Below, in pieces: positions 523 through 13,811 of a stretch of DNA of 13,811 nt. Positions within the stretch are counted from its first letter, which is position 1. Every line of letters starts with the position of its first letter. The stretch comes from Deltaproteobacteria bacterium. GTDB lineage: Bacteria > Myxococcota_A > Polyangia > HGW-17. Below the pieces are notes generated by a model. The model made no database searches. It worked only from the letters and a program-made list of their open reading frames with translations, and was not told the origin of the DNA. The position numbers and the translations under genes are program-made. Location of the stretch: NCBI GenBank assembly GCA_003249585.1, contig QKIM01000093.1, positions 1-13,811 of the forward strand, written 5' to 3'.

Positions 523-636
523 ACGTTCACCAAGTTTTTCCCCCCCTCCAAATAAAATGCATGGTATGAAAGAGGGCCGCCCGCGGAGGATCACCCGTGG
601 CGGAGTTCATTTCTCTTAACGCAAAGGATACTCGGT

Positions 637-2838
637 ATGTTGTCGGCACTCCTCGTTCCCCTCCTGTTGTTCTCGGCCCCCTCGGCGAAAACCTACACCC
701 CGAATCCCCAGGCGAGCCTCAGCCGGATCCTGCCCATCTGGCAGTCCCAGGGGCTCTACAACAAGGACTCGAGCACCCAGCTCTTCACCTATCGCGAGGA
801 ACACCCCGAGCTGTACGGGATCACCACGGCACCGGGGAACACCTACAACCTCTATGCGGAATTTGGAACGGTGGACCGGATCTACCTCGTGTACACCGAC
901 GACATGCGGGACTACTGGGTCCAGATCATCGAAGAAGCCGCCTCCCAGATGGAGGTCTACGTGATCTCCGGCGAGAGCGGTCAGGCCGCCACCATCGAGA
1001 CCATCCTCCAGAACAACGTTGACCCCGGGCTCATGGCCAACGTCACGGTCCTCGACTTCTATCCCACGGAGCACTACGTCTACACGCAGCCGGTCTACGA
1101 CTCGGGAATCGACGCCATCTGGACCGTGGATTTTGGCCCCTTCTACCTTGTCGACGGTTCGGGCAACATCGTCATCAGCGACGCCAAGTACTACCCCGAC
1201 CGCATCAATGACGATTCCGTCCCCACCAAGCTCGGCGACATGTTCGGCCTGACGGTCTTCCGCCCCGACATCTACATCGAGGGCGGCAACCTCATCTCCG
1301 ACGGGATGGGCAACTGCTACACCACGACGGTCGTGCAGGATTACAACACCAAGTACTCCGTCTCCGAACTGGAGAATGTCTTCGACCAGTATCTGGGCTG
1401 CCGCAATGTGGTCTGGCTCACCCCTCAGCAGGACGAGGGCACGGGCCACATCGACATGTTCTTCATCCTGGCCGACGCTCACACCGCCATCGTGGCCGAA
1501 TACACGACGACCCAGGACTCCGCCAACAAGACCATCCTCGATCAGAACGCAGCGCTGTTGTCAAGCACTCTGGCCGGCGACGGGTCCCCCATCACCGTCC
1601 TGCGCATGCCCATGCCCGATCCCGGCTCCGACTACTGGGGCCGCGTCTGGCGCACCTACACCAACGGTCTGCGCATCAACGACAAGTACCTCATGCCCGT
1701 CTACGCCGATGAGACCTCTCAGCAGGCGGACGCCGTCAGCGTCCTCCAGATGGCGCTCCCGGGCGTGGAGATCGTGACCGTGCCTTCCGACGAGATCATC
1801 GTCTACGGCGGCGCCATCCACTGCACCACCCGCACCCGCCCCGAGGGCACGGCTGCCGCCGTGGCCGATCCAGACTACCTGTGTGACGGCCACTCCCAGT
1901 GCGACGACTGCGTCGATGAGTGCGCCGTGGGAGAGACTGGCTGCAACGCCAACGGAAACCGGTACCTCTGCGGCTTCTTCGACGACGACACCTGCCTGGA
2001 CAAGCTGGAGCTCCCCTGCCCCTCCACCGCCCCCTGCAGCGAAGGCATGTGCGAAGGATACGACTGTGAGGACGAGTGCCTCCCCATGGAGCTTGGCTGC
2101 GAGGACGACGGCACCTCCTGGATGTGCGGCGAGGCCGGCGACGCCGATCCCTGCCTGGACAAGATCTACTTCGACTGCGGCACGGGCCGTCAGTGCAACG
2201 GCGGTATCTGCGCCGGTACCGGTGGCACCTGCGGCGACATCGATTACGACGGCGAGTGCCAGGGCACCTTCTCCGTCTACTGTGACGAGAGCACCCTCGT
2301 CTATTATGACTGCGCCGAGTACGGCATGGTCTGCGGCTACGTCACCGGTGACGGCTGGTACGACTGTATCGACGCCCCCAGCTGCACCGACGAGTGCGAG
2401 ATCGCCCAGACCCGCTGCGGGGAGGGTGAGGCCGACATCGAGTACTGTGCCGAGACCTTCGACGGCGACACCTGCCTCGAGTGGCGCTCGGACACCTGCG
2501 GTGACGAGATGATCTGCTCCGAGACCGGCTGCGTAGCCGACGGCTGCCAGGATGAGTGCACCCTGGACGAGATGATGTGCGCCGACGAGGCTACCCTCGA
2601 CACCTGCGTCACCGACGAGGTAACCGGCTGCACCGTGTGGTCATCCGAGACCTGCGGCGAAGGAACCACCTGCGACGCCACCACCCTCACCTGCCACGGC
2701 GACGAGAGCAGCTCCTCCGACTCCGGTTGCGGCTGCTCCACCCCTGGCTCTAAGGGCAACACCTCCCTGCCTGTGTTCCTCATGCTGCTTGGCGGCGCCT
2801 TCTTCGCCCTGCGCCGCTCCCTGATCACCCGCCTCTGA
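637..2838 (+). CDS. Secreted peptidylarginine/agmatine deiminase-family protein with Cys-rich repeats and MYXO-CTERM-like tail
   Basis: This 733-residue protein has three parts after a hydrophobic N-terminus (residues 1-17, probable signal peptide, no basic n-region). Residues about 60-405 match the bacterial PAD/agmatine deiminase fold by motif: W162-T-V-D165-F-G-P, E215-G-G-N, G270-H271-I-D273 and G-G-A-I-H395-C396. That gives the expected Asp, His, Asp and nucleophilic Cys of guanidino-group hydrolases, which turn arginine side chains into citrulline or agmatine into N-carbamoylputrescine. Secretion favours a peptidyl-arginine substrate. In the usual W-x-R-D motif the Arg is Val164. Residues about 422-687 hold five Cys-rich repeats of roughly 50 residues; the first two have eight Cys each and most begin C-x-D-E-C. 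The C-terminus has G697-C-G-C700, a hydrophobic helix (711-725) and R726-R727, as in MYXO-CTERM surface sorting. AAAGGA at 623-628 supports the ATG; there is no in-frame ATG, GTG or TTG between it and the stop at 553. It converges on the lipoprotein operon. Confidence 0.85.
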   Translation: MLSALLVPLLLFSAPSAKTYTPNPQASLSRILPIWQSQGLYNKDSSTQLFTYREEHPELYGITTAPGNTYNLYAEFGTVDRIYLVYTDDMRDYWVQIIEEAASQMEVYVISGESGQAATIETILQNNVDPGLMANVTVLDFYPTEHYVYTQPVYDSGIDAIWTVDFGPFYLVDGSGNIVISDAKYYPDRINDDSVPTKLGDMFGLTVFRPDIYIEGGNLISDGMGNCYTTTVVQDYNTKYSVSELENVFDQYLGCRNVVWLTPQQDEGTGHIDMFFILADAHTAIVAEYTTTQDSANKTILDQNAALLSSTLAGDGSPITVLRMPMPDPGSDYWGRVWRTYTNGLRINDKYLMPVYADETSQQADAVSVLQMALPGVEIVTVPSDEIIVYGGAIHCTTRTRPEGTAAAVADPDYLCDGHSQCDDCVDECAVGETGCNANGNRYLCGFFDDDTCLDKLELPCPSTAPCSEGMCEGYDCEDECLPMELGCEDDGTSWMCGEAGDADPCLDKIYFDCGTGRQCNGGICAGTGGTCGDIDYDGECQGTFSVYCDESTLVYYDCAEYGMVCGYVTGDGWYDCIDAPSCTDECEIAQTRCGEGEADIEYCAETFDGDTCLEWRSDTCGDEMICSETGCVADGCQDECTLDEMMCADEATLDTCVTDEVTGCTVWSSETCGEGTTCDATTLTCHGDESSSSDSGCGCSTPGSKGNTSLPVFLMLLGGAFFALRRSLITRL

Positions 2839-8990: not shown

Positions 8991-11204
8991 TCAAAACAGT
9001 TTCAGACGGTGGGCCACAACGTACAGAGCCGGGAGGAGCAGAAGATCTCCCGCCAGGGCGAAGGCCAGGGCGAGGACGATGAGAAAGCCCATGTCGAAGA
9101 TGGTCTGAAAGCTCGAGAGCATCATGACGGCGAAGCCTGCGGAGATAACGACGGAGGTCAGCATCACCGCCCGACCCGAGACGTTGAAGACGTGGGAGAA
9201 GAGCGCCGGGGGGGTCTTCATCCTGTGCCGCCAAAGGGTAAGGTGTGTGAGCAGGTGGACCGTGTCGTCCACCACCAGTGAGAGCGCCACGGCAAAGACG
9301 AGGAGGGAGGCCGGGGAAAGCTCATACCCCGAAAACCCCGCCACTCCGAGCACCCCGAGGAGGGGCAGGAGGTTGGGGGGCAGTGAAATCACCGCCAGGG
9401 CCAGAGAGCGCCCGGCCAACAGAAGGATGAAGAAGATGAGCACGCCCACGGCGCCCAGAGAGAGGGAGAAGCCCCGCATGAGACGCGTGTAGGTGCGTCC
9501 CGTGAGGTGGACGGTGCCCGTCACCCGGGCGTCGAGTCCGCGGCGCTCCCGTTTGATGAACTCCTTGAGTGAGGCCAAAAAGGGTTCCATTCTCTTGGAA
9601 CCGGCGTCCTTGACGAAGATCATGATTTGGGTCGATCCCGTAGTGGGGTCATACACGGACTCCAGAGCCTTCGCCCTGCGGGTCAGGGCGTCAGCCTGCT
9701 CCTTGAGGGCCGAGGGTGTAAACCCATCGACCATGGTGGGGTCGAAGTCGAGCCCCTTTCGCCTCAGACCCTCACGGAGGAAGGTGTTGAGCGAGACCAC
9801 CTTGGTGACGAAGGGGACACCACGGACGAAACGCTCCACCCGCCGGGCAAAATGGAGAACCGATGGGGCAATTCCTTCCGCGACCCCGGGCAGGTAGACG
9901 TTGACCTGAAAAACGCCGAATCCCGCCGACTGTACCTCCTCGAGATCGGCTCGCAACGGCGCCCCTGGCCTCAGATCATTGAGAATATGCGACTCCATAT
10001 GGACCATGCGACTCCCCGCGAGCGCCGCAGCGGAGAGGATCATGGTGACGACGAGGACGATGACGGCCCGCCGCAACGTGAGCGCGGAGAGGTATCGCAG
10101 CAGCCGGTCTCCCCGGGGTCGGACGCGCTTCGGCGCGGGAGCCGCCGCGAGAATGACAGGGAAGAGCACCATGGAGAACCCGAAGGTCAACATGATCCCC
10201 AGCGCCGCCGCGATGCTGAAGTCCACAATGACGGCGATCCCCGACAGGATCAGGGAACCGAACCCCAGGGCCGTCGTGAGGCTGGTGAGAAAGCAGCTCC
10301 GCCATATCTCCCGGAACGTGTCGAGAACCATCCCCTGGCGTTCCCTGGGCTGCGCGCCGGGACTCTCCGCCAGCCGCGCACGGTAGGGCATGAGGATGTG
10401 GAGAGCGTCGCTGAGCCCGACAACAAGGAGAATCAGGGGGAGCATGGACATGATGGCCGTGATCGGTCTCCCCGTGAGGGCGAGCAGCGCCAGGACGATC
10501 AGATAGGACGGGGTCACGGCCACCAGAGGCAGGAGGGCATGGACAACGGAACCCAGATACAGGAACAGGAACAGGAACGTGAGGATCACCCCGCCCCCGA
10601 TGAGCAGGATCTGATCGTGTGCCATGAGGCGCAGGTATTTCGCGCGGATGACCGGCTCCCCCGTGAGGACGAGCCGGCGGCCTTCCTTTTGAAACGGCCT
10701 CACCACCTCCTGAAGTCTTCGCTCCATGTCTTTGCGCCCCGCATCGGTGTTCTGACCCGGTGGAAAAAATCCGGTGATCACGTGGACGGTGCGGGCATGA
10801 TTCCAGATGAGGCCCTCGAAAAAGGGGTCGGCTCCGCGACGCCGGACGAACTCCTTCAGCGACGATATCCCTTCGTCCGCCATGGCTCGCCCCGTCCAGT
10901 AGAGGTCCGTGAGCCCAGCTCTTTGGAATCCCTCCACCAGAGCCGCCATGAGCGTGAGCGTCTGTTCGGTCACAGGGCCTTTTTCCCGCCAGAACAGGGA
11001 TACCGCTCCGTCCTGTGAGCGGAATCTCCCCTTGAATTCCCTGAAGGTCCGCATCTCTGTGTCGCCTTCGGGGAAATATCGCTCCACATCGAAGTCGAGG
11101 GATACCCTGCTCGCGAAGAACACCACAGGCACAAGGACGAGGGCCCCGGCGACGAGGATCCACCGACGCCGGGCCAGCACCATGGCGAAGAAGGTCCTGC
11201 TCAC
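8991..11204 (-). CDS. RND/MMPL-family transporter (exporter-like)
   Basis: The 737-residue protein has the duplicated RND layout with about 12 membrane segments. TM1 is about 15-32, followed by a large extracytoplasmic loop (33-197). TM2-6 lie between about 199 and 355, TM7 is about 378-398, a second large loop covers 399-580, and TM8-12 run from about 582 to 731. Conserved acidic residues occur in matching places of both halves: S-D266-A-L-H in TM4 and V-V-D646-D647-T-V-H-L-L in TM10, as expected for proton-driven RND/MMPL proteins of the 'predicted exporters of the RND superfamily' type. The start codon is GTG (11204-11202), inside the 4-base GTGA overlap with the NRPS-type gene, so it is translated in coupling with that gene. 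That points to handling of the upstream enzyme's product, or of a lipid carrying it. The substrate cannot be read from sequence. Confidence 0.87.
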   Translation of the reverse strand: MSRTFFAMVLARRRWILVAGALVLVPVVFFASRVSLDFDVERYFPEGDTEMRTFREFKGRFRSQDGAVSLFWREKGPVTEQTLTLMAALVEGFQRAGLTDLYWTGRAMADEGISSLKEFVRRRGADPFFEGLIWNHARTVHVITGFFPPGQNTDAGRKDMERRLQEVVRPFQKEGRRLVLTGEPVIRAKYLRLMAHDQILLIGGGVILTFLFLFLYLGSVVHALLPLVAVTPSYLIVLALLALTGRPITAIMSMLPLILLVVGLSDALHILMPYRARLAESPGAQPRERQGMVLDTFREIWRSCFLTSLTTALGFGSLILSGIAVIVDFSIAAALGIMLTFGFSMVLFPVILAAAPAPKRVRPRGDRLLRYLSALTLRRAVIVLVVTMILSAAALAGSRMVHMESHILNDLRPGAPLRADLEEVQSAGFGVFQVNVYLPGVAEGIAPSVLHFARRVERFVRGVPFVTKVVSLNTFLREGLRRKGLDFDPTMVDGFTPSALKEQADALTRRAKALESVYDPTTGSTQIMIFVKDAGSKRMEPFLASLKEFIKRERRGLDARVTGTVHLTGRTYTRLMRGFSLSLGAVGVLIFFILLLAGRSLALAVISLPPNLLPLLGVLGVAGFSGYELSPASLLVFAVALSLVVDDTVHLLTHLTLWRHRMKTPPALFSHVFNVSGRAVMLTSVVISAGFAVMMLSSFQTIFDMGFLIVLALAFALAGDLLLLPALYVVAHRLKLF

Positions 11205-13811
11205 GGATCGACCCCGAAAAATCCCCGGGAGCGGCAGTGGTCCAACATCCGTTTGACGTGTCCCTGCGCTGGAACGTCAAAGGCGAACCCGAGCTGTGCC
11301 AGCCAGGGATCAGCAGGGGGAAAGGCCCGATCATGTGCAGCCGCCATGAGGGCGATGCTCCCGGCTGCCAGGCGGAAGGCGCCGCGGATCTCCCTGGAGC
11401 GTGTCCTCAGTTCCTCGAGGAACCGATCGGGAGAGAGGGCCGTGACTGAAGCTCCCCATGTCGAGATCATGCGGGCGAATTCCGTGAGCGTGAGATCATG
11501 GGGATTGGCGACGGTGAGGTCACCCCCGGCGAGCGACCTGGTGGAGGCGATCAGCCGGATGGCACGGGCGAGTTGATCCACGAAGGTGAGGTTCACGAGC
11601 CGGCCACCCACGTCGGGCACAATCTGACTGGTGACCAGCAGCCTCACCATTCGATAGAAGGCGTTCTCATCGATATTATGTTGAAAATGTCCATCTCCTG
11701 AATCGCACACCACATTCCCCACCCTGAGAATGGAGGTCCTGGCTGAGGCGATCTCGTGCGCTCTGAGCATCCCCTCGGCCAGGGCCTTGGAGCGCAGGTA
11801 GTTGTTCTCCGAGGAGCGGCCGCGTCCAGTCACGGAGGTGGTGGATATGTGGACGAGCCTGAGCGCCGGATTCTCTTCGAGCAGCGCTGCCACGTGGGCG
11901 GTCCCCTGGACGTTGATCCGATGAAACACCTCAGGGTGTCCAACATGTTTGACCAGGGCCGCGGTGTGGACCACGGCATCGCAGGAGGCGGCGAGATCCC
12001 GGAATTCCTTCTTGGACAATCCCATGTGTGGGAGGGTGATGTCCATGGGGATCAGCGTGATCCTGTCGCCGTGACCGAGACAGTATCCGGCCCCAAAGTA
12101 TTCATCCAGGCGTGTCGTCAGGGCTCCCCTGGCCTCATCAACATCTCCCCGAACGCCCAGGAGCAGGTGGGTCTGGGTCTGCTCCAGATACTCCCGGACC
12201 ATATGAGCCCCGAGATATCCTGTCGCACCGGTGATGAGAATCGCCGTGTCCTCCCGGGTATTGAGGGGCTGCTCGACGTTCCCGATCATGGCGTTCGGAC
12301 CACCGGACGCGGGGGCCGGGTCCTCGGGAGGATCCAGAGAGGCCAGCCAGTCATCATCGTCCCAGGCCCCCCTGGGCACGAGCAGAGGGGCCAGAGTGGC
12401 AGGTGTCGTTGCCCGGAAGAGATCCTCCACAGCGAGCTCCCACTCGTCACTGAGAAGTGAAAACAGTTCCATGATCCCCAGTGAATCTCCCCCGGCCTCG
12501 AAATAGTCGGTGTGGGGTCTGACGGTACCGTGGAGCACCTTCCGGTAATGGGGGAGGATGGACTCAAGGATCCCCTCTATGGCCGGGCTTCCCGGAGTCT
12601 CACGGTCGGCGCCGGGTTCATGGAGCATCCCGTCCACTGTCAGTCTCACGGGGACCATGTGAGGCGGGAGTAGCGAACGCAGAGAGGCGGCGAGGGTTCC
12701 CGCCGAAGATCCGCCGGTGGTCTGTATATGCGCACAGAGCCTTCCCGCGGCGTCCACATTGACCGTGACCGCCTCCACCGCCTCGAGGGTGACGATGAGC
12801 CGCTCCACTTCCGCAAGCTCCACTCTGAACCCGGAGAGCTTCACCTGTCGGTCCACCCGTCCCATGAAATGGAGCTCCCCGTGCAGGTCTTTCCACCCAA
12901 AATCTCCTGTGGGGTAAAGCGCTTCTGAGACTCCAGGGAGTCTCAGCCCCGGAAGGGGGTGCAGCCTCCCTCCTTCCACATATCCTCGCGCAAGCCCCGG
13001 ACCTCCAATACATATTTCTCCTGGCATTCCTTCATGTTGGACACATTCCTTCCCGCAGACAACCACCCGATAGCCCGGCAGGGGTCGACCTATGGGGAGA
13101 TTCTCGGGGGAGGCCTCGGTGACGGCGTGGTAGGTGCAGGCCACGGTGGCCTCCGTGGGACCATAGGAGTTGTAGATCGTGTTGGCCGCGACCAGCGTCG
13201 CGATGTCAGCGCGCTTCAGACGTTCGCCACCGCAGATGATGGTTCGCCCTGAAATCCCTCTGGATCTCCCGTTGAGATGCCGCACCCAGGAGGGAGTCGT
13301 AGTAAGGTGCGTGATCCTCAACTGTTCCATTTGATCGACCATACGGTCGACATCCAGGATGGTCTCACGCCGGGGCACAAACAGTGACGCCCCCGTGAGG
13401 AGCGCTCCAAAGAGCGCCTCGAAGGAGATGTCCACCATGAAGGAGGTCGTGGTCGCGATGCCATCACCGGGCCCGAGGGGGACCTGCTCGAGGAACCGTT
13501 CCATGTAATGCAGGATGTTGTCGTGCCCCACGAGCACCGCGCGGGGTTCGCCCGTCGTCCCTGAGGTGAAGACCAGAACGGTCGACCGCTCCAGGGGATG
13601 TGCAACCCGTGGCAGCGCTCCCGGCAGATCCCCCGGGGCCATACCCGAAAGGCGCAGGGCTCCCGGTGCCAGCTCCACGAGCCGGGACCGCCGCTCTTCG
13701 GGGAGCCTGGGATCGATGGCGGCGAAGGGCACTTCGGCCAGCAGCGACCCTACCATGCAGGTGACCAGGGTCAGGGGTTCCTCACAGTCCCAGAGGATCC
13801 AGGGGGCCCCC
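11201..13811 (-). CDS. NRPS-type adenylation-carrier-thioester reductase protein (N-terminus outside window)
   Basis: The frame is open to the window edge (GAPWILWDC... before the Met at 13756), so the 5' end is missing. Numbering from that Met, the adenylation domain has T-S-G-T-T-G (64-69), an Asp typical of amino-acid substrates (D109, in F-M-V-D-I-S), Y-G-P-T-E (198-202), T-G-D (283-285) and G-F-R-V-E (309-313). The carrier domain has G-G-D-S425, the phosphopantetheine site. The C-terminal reductase (about 505-845) has the NAD(P)H loop G-A-T-G-Y-L-G (510-516), S-T-T (638-640) and the catalytic Y653-x-x-x-K657. Such A-T-R proteins bind an acyl or aminoacyl group as a thioester and release it by reduction to an aldehyde or alcohol. 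The A10 region reads E-P-G-A-D-R-E instead of the usual N-G-K, so the usual catalytic Lys is absent. The A3 motif also reads P-R-A-V for P-K-G-V. An upstream condensation domain may exist beyond the edge. The stop overlaps the transporter start (GTGA). Confidence 0.88.
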   Translation of the reverse strand, partial: GAPWILWDCEEPLTLVTCMVGSLLAEVPFAAIDPRLPEERRSRLVELAPGALRLSGMAPGDLPGALPRVAHPLERSTVLVFTSGTTGEPRAVLVGHDNILHYMERFLEQVPLGPGDGIATTTSFMVDISFEALFGALLTGASLFVPRRETILDVDRMVDQMEQLRITHLTTTPSWVRHLNGRSRGISGRTIICGGERLKRADIATLVAANTIYNSYGPTEATVACTYHAVTEASPENLPIGRPLPGYRVVVCGKECVQHEGMPGEICIGGPGLARGYVEGGRLHPLPGLRLPGVSEALYPTGDFGWKDLHGELHFMGRVDRQVKLSGFRVELAEVERLIVTLEAVEAVTVNVDAAGRLCAHIQTTGGSSAGTLAASLRSLLPPHMVPVRLTVDGMLHEPGADRETPGSPAIEGILESILPHYRKVLHGTVRPHTDYFEAGGDSLGIMELFSLLSDEWELAVEDLFRATTPATLAPLLVPRGAWDDDDWLASLDPPEDPAPASGGPNAMIGNVEQPLNTREDTAILITGATGYLGAHMVREYLEQTQTHLLLGVRGDVDEARGALTTRLDEYFGAGYCLGHGDRITLIPMDITLPHMGLSKKEFRDLAASCDAVVHTAALVKHVGHPEVFHRINVQGTAHVAALLEENPALRLVHISTTSVTGRGRSSENNYLRSKALAEGMLRAHEIASARTSILRVGNVVCDSGDGHFQHNIDENAFYRMVRLLVTSQIVPDVGGRLVNLTFVDQLARAIRLIASTRSLAGGDLTVANPHDLTLTEFARMISTWGASVTALSPDRFLEELRTRSREIRGAFRLAAGSIALMAAAHDRAFPPADPWLAQLGFAFDVPAQGHVKRMLDHCRSRGFFGVDP

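Follow-up and report, generated by a model that had tools for sequence, protein, structure and literature searches.

The locus analyzed here raises the question of whether a myxobacterium carries on its surface a deiminase that modifies arginine in proteins, as does PPAD, the peptidylarginine deiminase (PAD) of Porphyromonas gingivalis, or rather an exported relative of agmatine deiminase (AgD). The gene lies within a 13,811-nucleotide stretch of DNA (hereafter the window; positions 1 to 13,811 of contig QKIM01000093.1, assembly GCA_003249585.1, Deltaproteobacteria bacterium). The original prediction, made from the letters of the window, had read the open reading frame (ORF) at 637-2838 as a PPAD-like enzyme in a different lineage, with a catalytic domain of the PAD/AgD superfamily, a signal peptide, five Cys-rich repeats, and a MYXO-CTERM-like tail. 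From our sequence analysis we lean towards a surface deiminase that, within PF04371, resembles PPAD more than AgD and whose substrate would most likely be the arginine of extracellular peptides or proteins.

The Gene Product Has a Complete Set of Deiminase Active-Site Residues

PF04371 (PAD_porph) was the only Pfam family to match the protein at E 0.1, and it covered residues 87-402 with 143.3 bits (cut-off 25; E 1.3e-41). The score is above the Pfam gathering threshold and the predicted model shows an alpha/beta-propeller, which keeps residues 60-405 inside the PAD/AgD superfamily, as had been proposed. The fold is predicted with confidence and is the right one for the superfamily; the structural comparison ends in a tie between AgD-type structures and PPAD. 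Animal-type sequence domains (PAD_N, PAD_M, and PAD_C) are not present in the protein, nor were the immunoglobulin-like domain and the type IX secretion system (T9SS) C-terminal domain of PPAD found, the Pfam search at E 0.1 having returned only PF04371 and the tail being of the MYXO-CTERM type. The catalytic residues named beforehand (D165, H271, D273, and C396) stand where they had been placed and, together with N343, which had not been named, as well as W162 and G217, are unchanged in 96 of 96 rows of the family alignment, from which 7 loci are absent. The features of the gene are listed in Table 1.

Table 1. Features of the deiminase gene, with positions in the window.
Feature	Position	Strand	Basis
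Shine-Dalgarno-like AAAGGA	623-628	+	Eight bases short of the ATG at 637; read directly
Coding sequence, 733 amino acids, putative surface-anchored deiminase	637-2838	+	ATG start; ORF list, PF04371, TIGR03901
Predicted signal peptide, residues about 1-17 (MLSALLVPLLLFSAPSA)	637-687	+	Hydrophobic run; similar starts in orthologues
Catalytic alpha/beta-propeller domain, residues about 59-405	811-1851	+	
D165 (PPAD D130), guanidinium binding	1129-1131	+	Invariant in 96/96; role from PMC4487231
P187, at the position of PPAD R152	1195-1197	+	Ungapped D-x-x-Y-x-x-x-R-x-N-D-D alignment
R189 (PPAD R154), substrate main-chain arginine	1201-1203	+	Ungapped D-x-x-Y-x-x-x-R-x-N-D-D alignment
G268, at the position of PPAD Y233	1438-1440	+	Ungapped run up to the catalytic His
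H271 and D273 (PPAD H236 and D238)	1447-1455	+	Invariant in 96/96
N343 (PPAD N297), fifth catalytic residue	1663-1665	+	Invariant in 96/96
C396 (PPAD C351), nucleophile	1822-1824	+	Invariant in 96/96
Cys-rich repeat 1, residues 422-472, 9 Cys	1900-2052	+	Cys count and conserved Cys columns
Cys-rich repeat 2, residues 477-525, 8 Cys	2065-2211	+	Cys count and conserved Cys columns
Cys-rich repeat 3, different type, residues 532-577, 6 Cys	2230-2367	+	Cys count and conserved Cys columns
Cys-rich repeat 4, residues 583-632, 8 Cys	2383-2532	+	Cys count and conserved Cys columns
Cys-rich repeat 5, residues 637-686, 8 Cys	2545-2694	+	Cys count and Cys columns
MYXO-CTERM sorting tail: GCGC motif, hydrophobic helix, RR near the end	2719-2835	+	TIGR03901

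The Substrate Loop Is of the PPAD Type, Whereas the Specificity Residues Are Not

Before columns were counted, 4 near-duplicates were removed from the 96 rows, which left 92 (14 AgD and 78 non-AgD). AgDs are marked by an insert, N-A/G-W (or D-A-W), in their substrate loop. All 14 AgD rows have it, which is not an independent count since these rows (12 loci and 2 PDB fragments) were chosen partly by the insert; the window protein lacks it. With the AgD equivalog TIGR03380, the window protein scored 94.6 bits, far below the cut-off of 381.8; 8 of the 12 AgD-like loci of the phylum scanned gave 239-298 bits, and none of these 8 reached the cut-off. The column of R189 holds arginine in 70 of the 78 non-AgD rows, PPAD included, and in all 12 rows of the close set of the window, whereas arginine never occurs in the AgD rows (W in 8/14). 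In a quick tree without bootstrap, the 14 insert-bearing rows formed one clade with a support of 100 in the Shimodaira-Hasegawa-like approximate likelihood ratio test (SH-aLRT), with the window on the other side; the insert itself, carried by 14/92 rows, should fall below the 30% column-fill limit of this tree. PPAD came out on the side of the window in the free tree, on a long branch (2.19).

The likeness to PPAD claimed at the outset thus holds for the loop, but not for the residues that set specificity. From D182 to D193 the two proteins align without gaps, so that R152 and R154 of PPAD, which bind the C-terminal carboxylate of the substrate (PMC4487231), correspond to P187 and R189, respectively. 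The first clamp is not kept (arginine in 2/78 non-AgD rows, PPAD being one of them) and the second one is. Y233 of the PPAD Michaelis loop, which would clash with the residue following the arginine and is said to block C-terminally extended substrates (PMC4487231), is not kept either: tyrosine occurs in 1/78 non-AgD rows, PPAD itself, and glycine is found in the window protein and in L022-L028 of the close set. In addition, M274 replaces C239. Human PAD4, which prefers internal arginines, has a serine at the place of Y233 (PMC4487231, PMC4893104). If the carboxylate clamp is gone and one backbone-binding arginine is left, this would fit an internal arginine; a different small substrate would fit as well. 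The pocket, which differs from that of PPAD, could mean a different choice of targets. Because of these changed residues (R152 to P187, Y233 to G268), the description "PPAD with another anchor" is too simple.

The Protein Is Probably Exported and Anchored by a MYXO-CTERM Tail

The extent and the cleavage site of the signal peptide were assigned by eye. The hydrophobic run averages 2.59 on the Kyte-Doolittle scale over 12 residues, without a positive charge ahead of it, and by eye the orthologues also start in a signal-like manner, which agrees with what had been predicted. All five Cys-rich repeats are there as well, but they are not of one kind, since repeats 1, 2, 4, and 5 have 8 or 9 Cys in similar spacing, whereas repeat 3 has 6 Cys in another spacing. 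Residues 406-693 contain 40 Cys among 288 residues, compared to 3 Cys in residues 1-405. In an alignment of this region from 8 sequences, Cys accounts for 34 of the 69 invariant columns, and these are confined to repeats 1-4, the positions just ahead of them, or the tail motif; repeat 5 is absent from homologue L028. For the Cys-rich region, neither a domain family nor a usable fold match was found (best Foldseek E 0.012, probability 0.10), its model, built from 8 sequences, having a predicted local distance difference test score (pLDDT) of 68.4.

The tail bears out the assignment as MYXO-CTERM: TIGR03901 (NCBIfam) matched residues 695-727 with 21.9 bits against a cut-off of 20, which is a narrow pass, and the Cys motif, the hydrophobic run, and the basic end are all present. 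The tail helix spans residues 712-731 of the predicted model, where confidence is low (pLDDT about 46-53). TIGR03901 exceeded its cut-off at 11 places in the genome of the window, the deiminase gene included, compared to none in 14 control genomes. TraA of Myxococcus xanthus, which likewise has a Cys motif, a hydrophobic helix, and an Arg-rich end, is cleaved by the myxosortase MrtX and released by the type II secretion system (PMC11980579); by analogy, the deiminase would be processed in the same way. TraA is a receptor, whereas the window protein carries a deiminase, and the word deiminase does not occur in the main text of PMC11980579. Judged from these features, the gene product probably sits outside the myxobacterial cell.

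The Architecture Is Conserved in the Family and Varied in the Phylum

The long protein occurs in 7 of the 8 genomes of its own family, the genome of the window included. The gene architecture is not a product of chance, because 6 of the 7 other genomes carry a full-length homologue, each with the tail. The homologue from the same genus shares 80% identity over the catalytic part. The closest named records are metagenome-assembled genomes (MAGs) of Myxococcota and Deltaproteobacteria, the nearest one being a Myxococcota MAG at 80%, in line with the proposed myxobacterial lineage. One PF04371 match each was found in the genome of the window and in 6 same-family genomes, and none in the seventh; therefore, no separate cytosolic AgD is seen there. 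More widely, 35 of the 59 nearest genomes match the catalytic domain, some with AgD-like proteins, and so do 217 of 377 phylum genomes at E 0.001, a count that includes AgDs; 43 of the 377 reach at least 150 bits (hand count).

The tail survey covered 49 proteins with a closed 3' end, namely the window protein and 48 of 58 others, after 10 that were ended by the locus edge had been dropped. By a simple rule, 21 of the 49 have a tripartite tail, compared to 289 of 9800 shuffled tails, and the co-occurrence of the deiminase domain with MYXO-CTERM was found in 9/49 (TIGR03901, E 0.01). The rule was passed by 9 of 11 close named loci; the two that fail, L030 and L031, have ends that nevertheless look similar by eye. 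A P-domain (proprotein-convertase, PF01483) was matched in 4/49 proteins. In L033, L035, L094, and L096, picked out by eye because their C termini are alike, a P-domain follows the deiminase domain. A hydrophobic start with a mean of 1.7 or more is present in 42 of the 46 rows examined, the others being L032 (contig end), L037, L043, and L072, and many of these 42 starts close with a Cys that by eye resembles a lipobox. Thus, the non-AgD rows seem to be mostly extracytoplasmic, with several types of anchor. In another family of the phylum, related deiminases (L130 and L131) have a catalytic domain that is interrupted by a Cys-rich insertion behind the strand with the Asn. Several genomes of that family have 3-6 matches, though a single protein may account for more than one of them, and in genome G097 two matches lie 1.7 kb apart on one strand.

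Proposed Function and Alternative Explanations

In the proposed mechanism, the signal peptide would export the deiminase, the MYXO-CTERM tail would direct its cleavage and anchoring, and the disulfide-rich repeats may form a stalk or a binding part. The invariant residues and the fold suggest that the propeller domain would hydrolyze the arginine guanidinium to citrulline and ammonia by a C396/H271/N343 mechanism, while D165 and D273 would hold the guanidinium. The substrate would most likely be arginine within or at the end of extracellular peptides or proteins, whose free C-terminal carboxylate, given the missing equivalents of R152 and Y233, presumably need not be clamped. The protein is thus probably PPAD-like in chemistry and exposure, and it is not PPAD by its specificity residues and domains.

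Several observations weigh against this reading. Searches by phmmer, profile, Foldseek, and VIA-align all rank 1xkn first, a structure that is AgD-type by its insert and whose function was not assayed (PMC4487231). Forcing PPAD together with the AgDs costs 0.59 log units (approximately unbiased (AU) test, p 0.49), so that this grouping is not rejected. Since the AU test leaves the place of PPAD open, the tree was discarded as proof of kinship, and the likeness to PPAD rests on the loop. The MYXO-CTERM score is just 1.9 bits above the cut-off. MrtX was not found in the genome of the window, which is 73% complete; matches exist in 11 of 13 genomes, all below the curated cut-off, and the genome of the window is among the two without. 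The near relatives under names are MAGs, and the position of G268 varies among close relatives (E, P, P, and Q in L029-L032). As to the pocket, R152A PPAD is inactive and R154A keeps about 30% of the activity (PMC4487231), and both variants are also reported to act still only on a peptide with a C-terminal arginine (PMC4893104), so that loss of R152 alone does not open PPAD to internal arginine. Finally, human PAD4 keeps both arginines, R372 and R374 (PMC4487231); thus, the window protein does not share the pocket of a known endo enzyme either.

It is rather unlikely that the protein is instead an extracellular deiminase for free arginine or a small agmatine-like guanidino compound without a role in protein modification. 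Such a substrate would fit the pocket, but the NAWGG insert is absent and the AgD model scores the window protein well below the AgD-like loci of the phylum. Moreover, a catabolic enzyme would not usually be expected to have a large Cys-rich extension and an anchor. The AguB model TIGR03381 matched in all 13 genomes, always below its cut-off, which says little since 12 of the 14 control genomes match as well (10 of the 12 below the cut-off); it does not separate the readings and was rejected as a test for agmatine use.

A more specific form of the preferred surface deiminase would be a Myxococcota endo-peptidylarginine deiminase without recent common descent with animal PADs, in which one arginine would hold the backbone and the open loop would admit internal arginines. 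We consider this form unlikely, the persisting C-terminal preference of R152A and R154A PPAD having lowered its odds.

Very unlikely, in our estimation, is a strict exo-deiminase that acts on C-terminal arginines released by a surface protease, as PPAD does with gingipain R. The correspondence of R189 to R154 and the C-terminal preference of R152A PPAD (PMC4893104) would fit it, and the same genome encodes a C25 (gingipain-family) peptidase whose start looks lipoprotein-like by eye (L132, G000:C511:5410-6579). Of the 13 near genomes, 11 have C25 matches, the genome of the window among them. Where the PAD match of a genome reaches at least 100 bits, C25 occurs in 15 of 18, compared to 18 of the 41 remaining genomes (Fisher p 0.009; counted by hand); these counts are not independent by descent, and by family they become 7/8 and 7/13 (hand count). 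The co-occurrence is suggestive, but confounded by descent. The C25 protein has no PDB sequence match at E 0.01 from which its arginine specificity could be read, and R152, indispensable in PPAD (PMC4487231), and Y233, two residues that bind the carboxylate, are not conserved. A non-catalytic binding or adhesion protein with a retained fold is hardly credible: nothing favors it directly, though its function could lie in the Cys-rich repeats, and the five catalytic residues are invariant along with W162 and G217.

Neighboring Genes

The ORF upstream of the deiminase gene (1-522, +) encodes only the C terminus of a longer protein, the rest being cut off by the contig start. Homologues form open frames of 754 (L023) and 751 (L024) amino acids with one transmembrane-like run by eye, and stop 91-97 bases ahead of the deiminase frame; in L022, the end of a homologue likewise precedes this frame. 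The remaining 8 loci that were searched gave no match to the upstream ORF; three of these have <600 bases upstream. In the 4-kb flanks of 11 relatives, the downstream gene order is kept only in the same-genus locus L022, apart from one weak partial match in L029, and we make no operon claim or claim of a functional system. Farther downstream, a single ORF with AMP-binding, carrier, and reductase domains (11204-13756, -) adjoins an MMPL-type transporter (8994-11204), and the two could possibly form a small biosynthesis cassette.

Relation to Known Deiminases and Meaning for the Family

Compared to PPAD (PDB 4yt9, 5ak7, 6i0x), with which it shares 22% identity over the structural alignment, the window protein has Cys-rich repeats and MYXO-CTERM in place of the immunoglobulin-like and T9SS domains. 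It also differs from the agmatine deiminase AguA (TIGR03380; PDB 2jer), which has the NAWGG insert, by its signal-like start and anchored tail. The lineage is myxobacterial, as had been claimed. PPAD was called unique among microbes in its structure paper (PMC4487231); PPAD-type genes outside Porphyromonas have already been noted (PMC8826395, PMC7864903). The five catalytic residues are also retained, with two specificity residues changed, in centiPADs and other bacterial PADs; these belong to lineages other than that of the window, and MYXO-CTERM is not mentioned in the excerpts of that paper used here (PMC7864903). Among the matches listed from the open-access literature, there was no paper on a Myxococcota surface deiminase and none on a MYXO-CTERM-anchored, Cys-rich form.

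A conserved surface-anchored family in free-living myxobacteria would mean that environmental bacteria, too, deiminate arginine outside the cell and perhaps citrullinate proteins. Its natural pocket variants would help to ask which features decide between exo and endo activity, and the family would bear on the origin of PPAD. If the endo form is true, then, with many relatives anchored in different ways (MYXO-CTERM, lipoprotein-like, P-domain), citrullination of proteins outside the cell would be common among bacteria rather than the trick of one oral pathogen.
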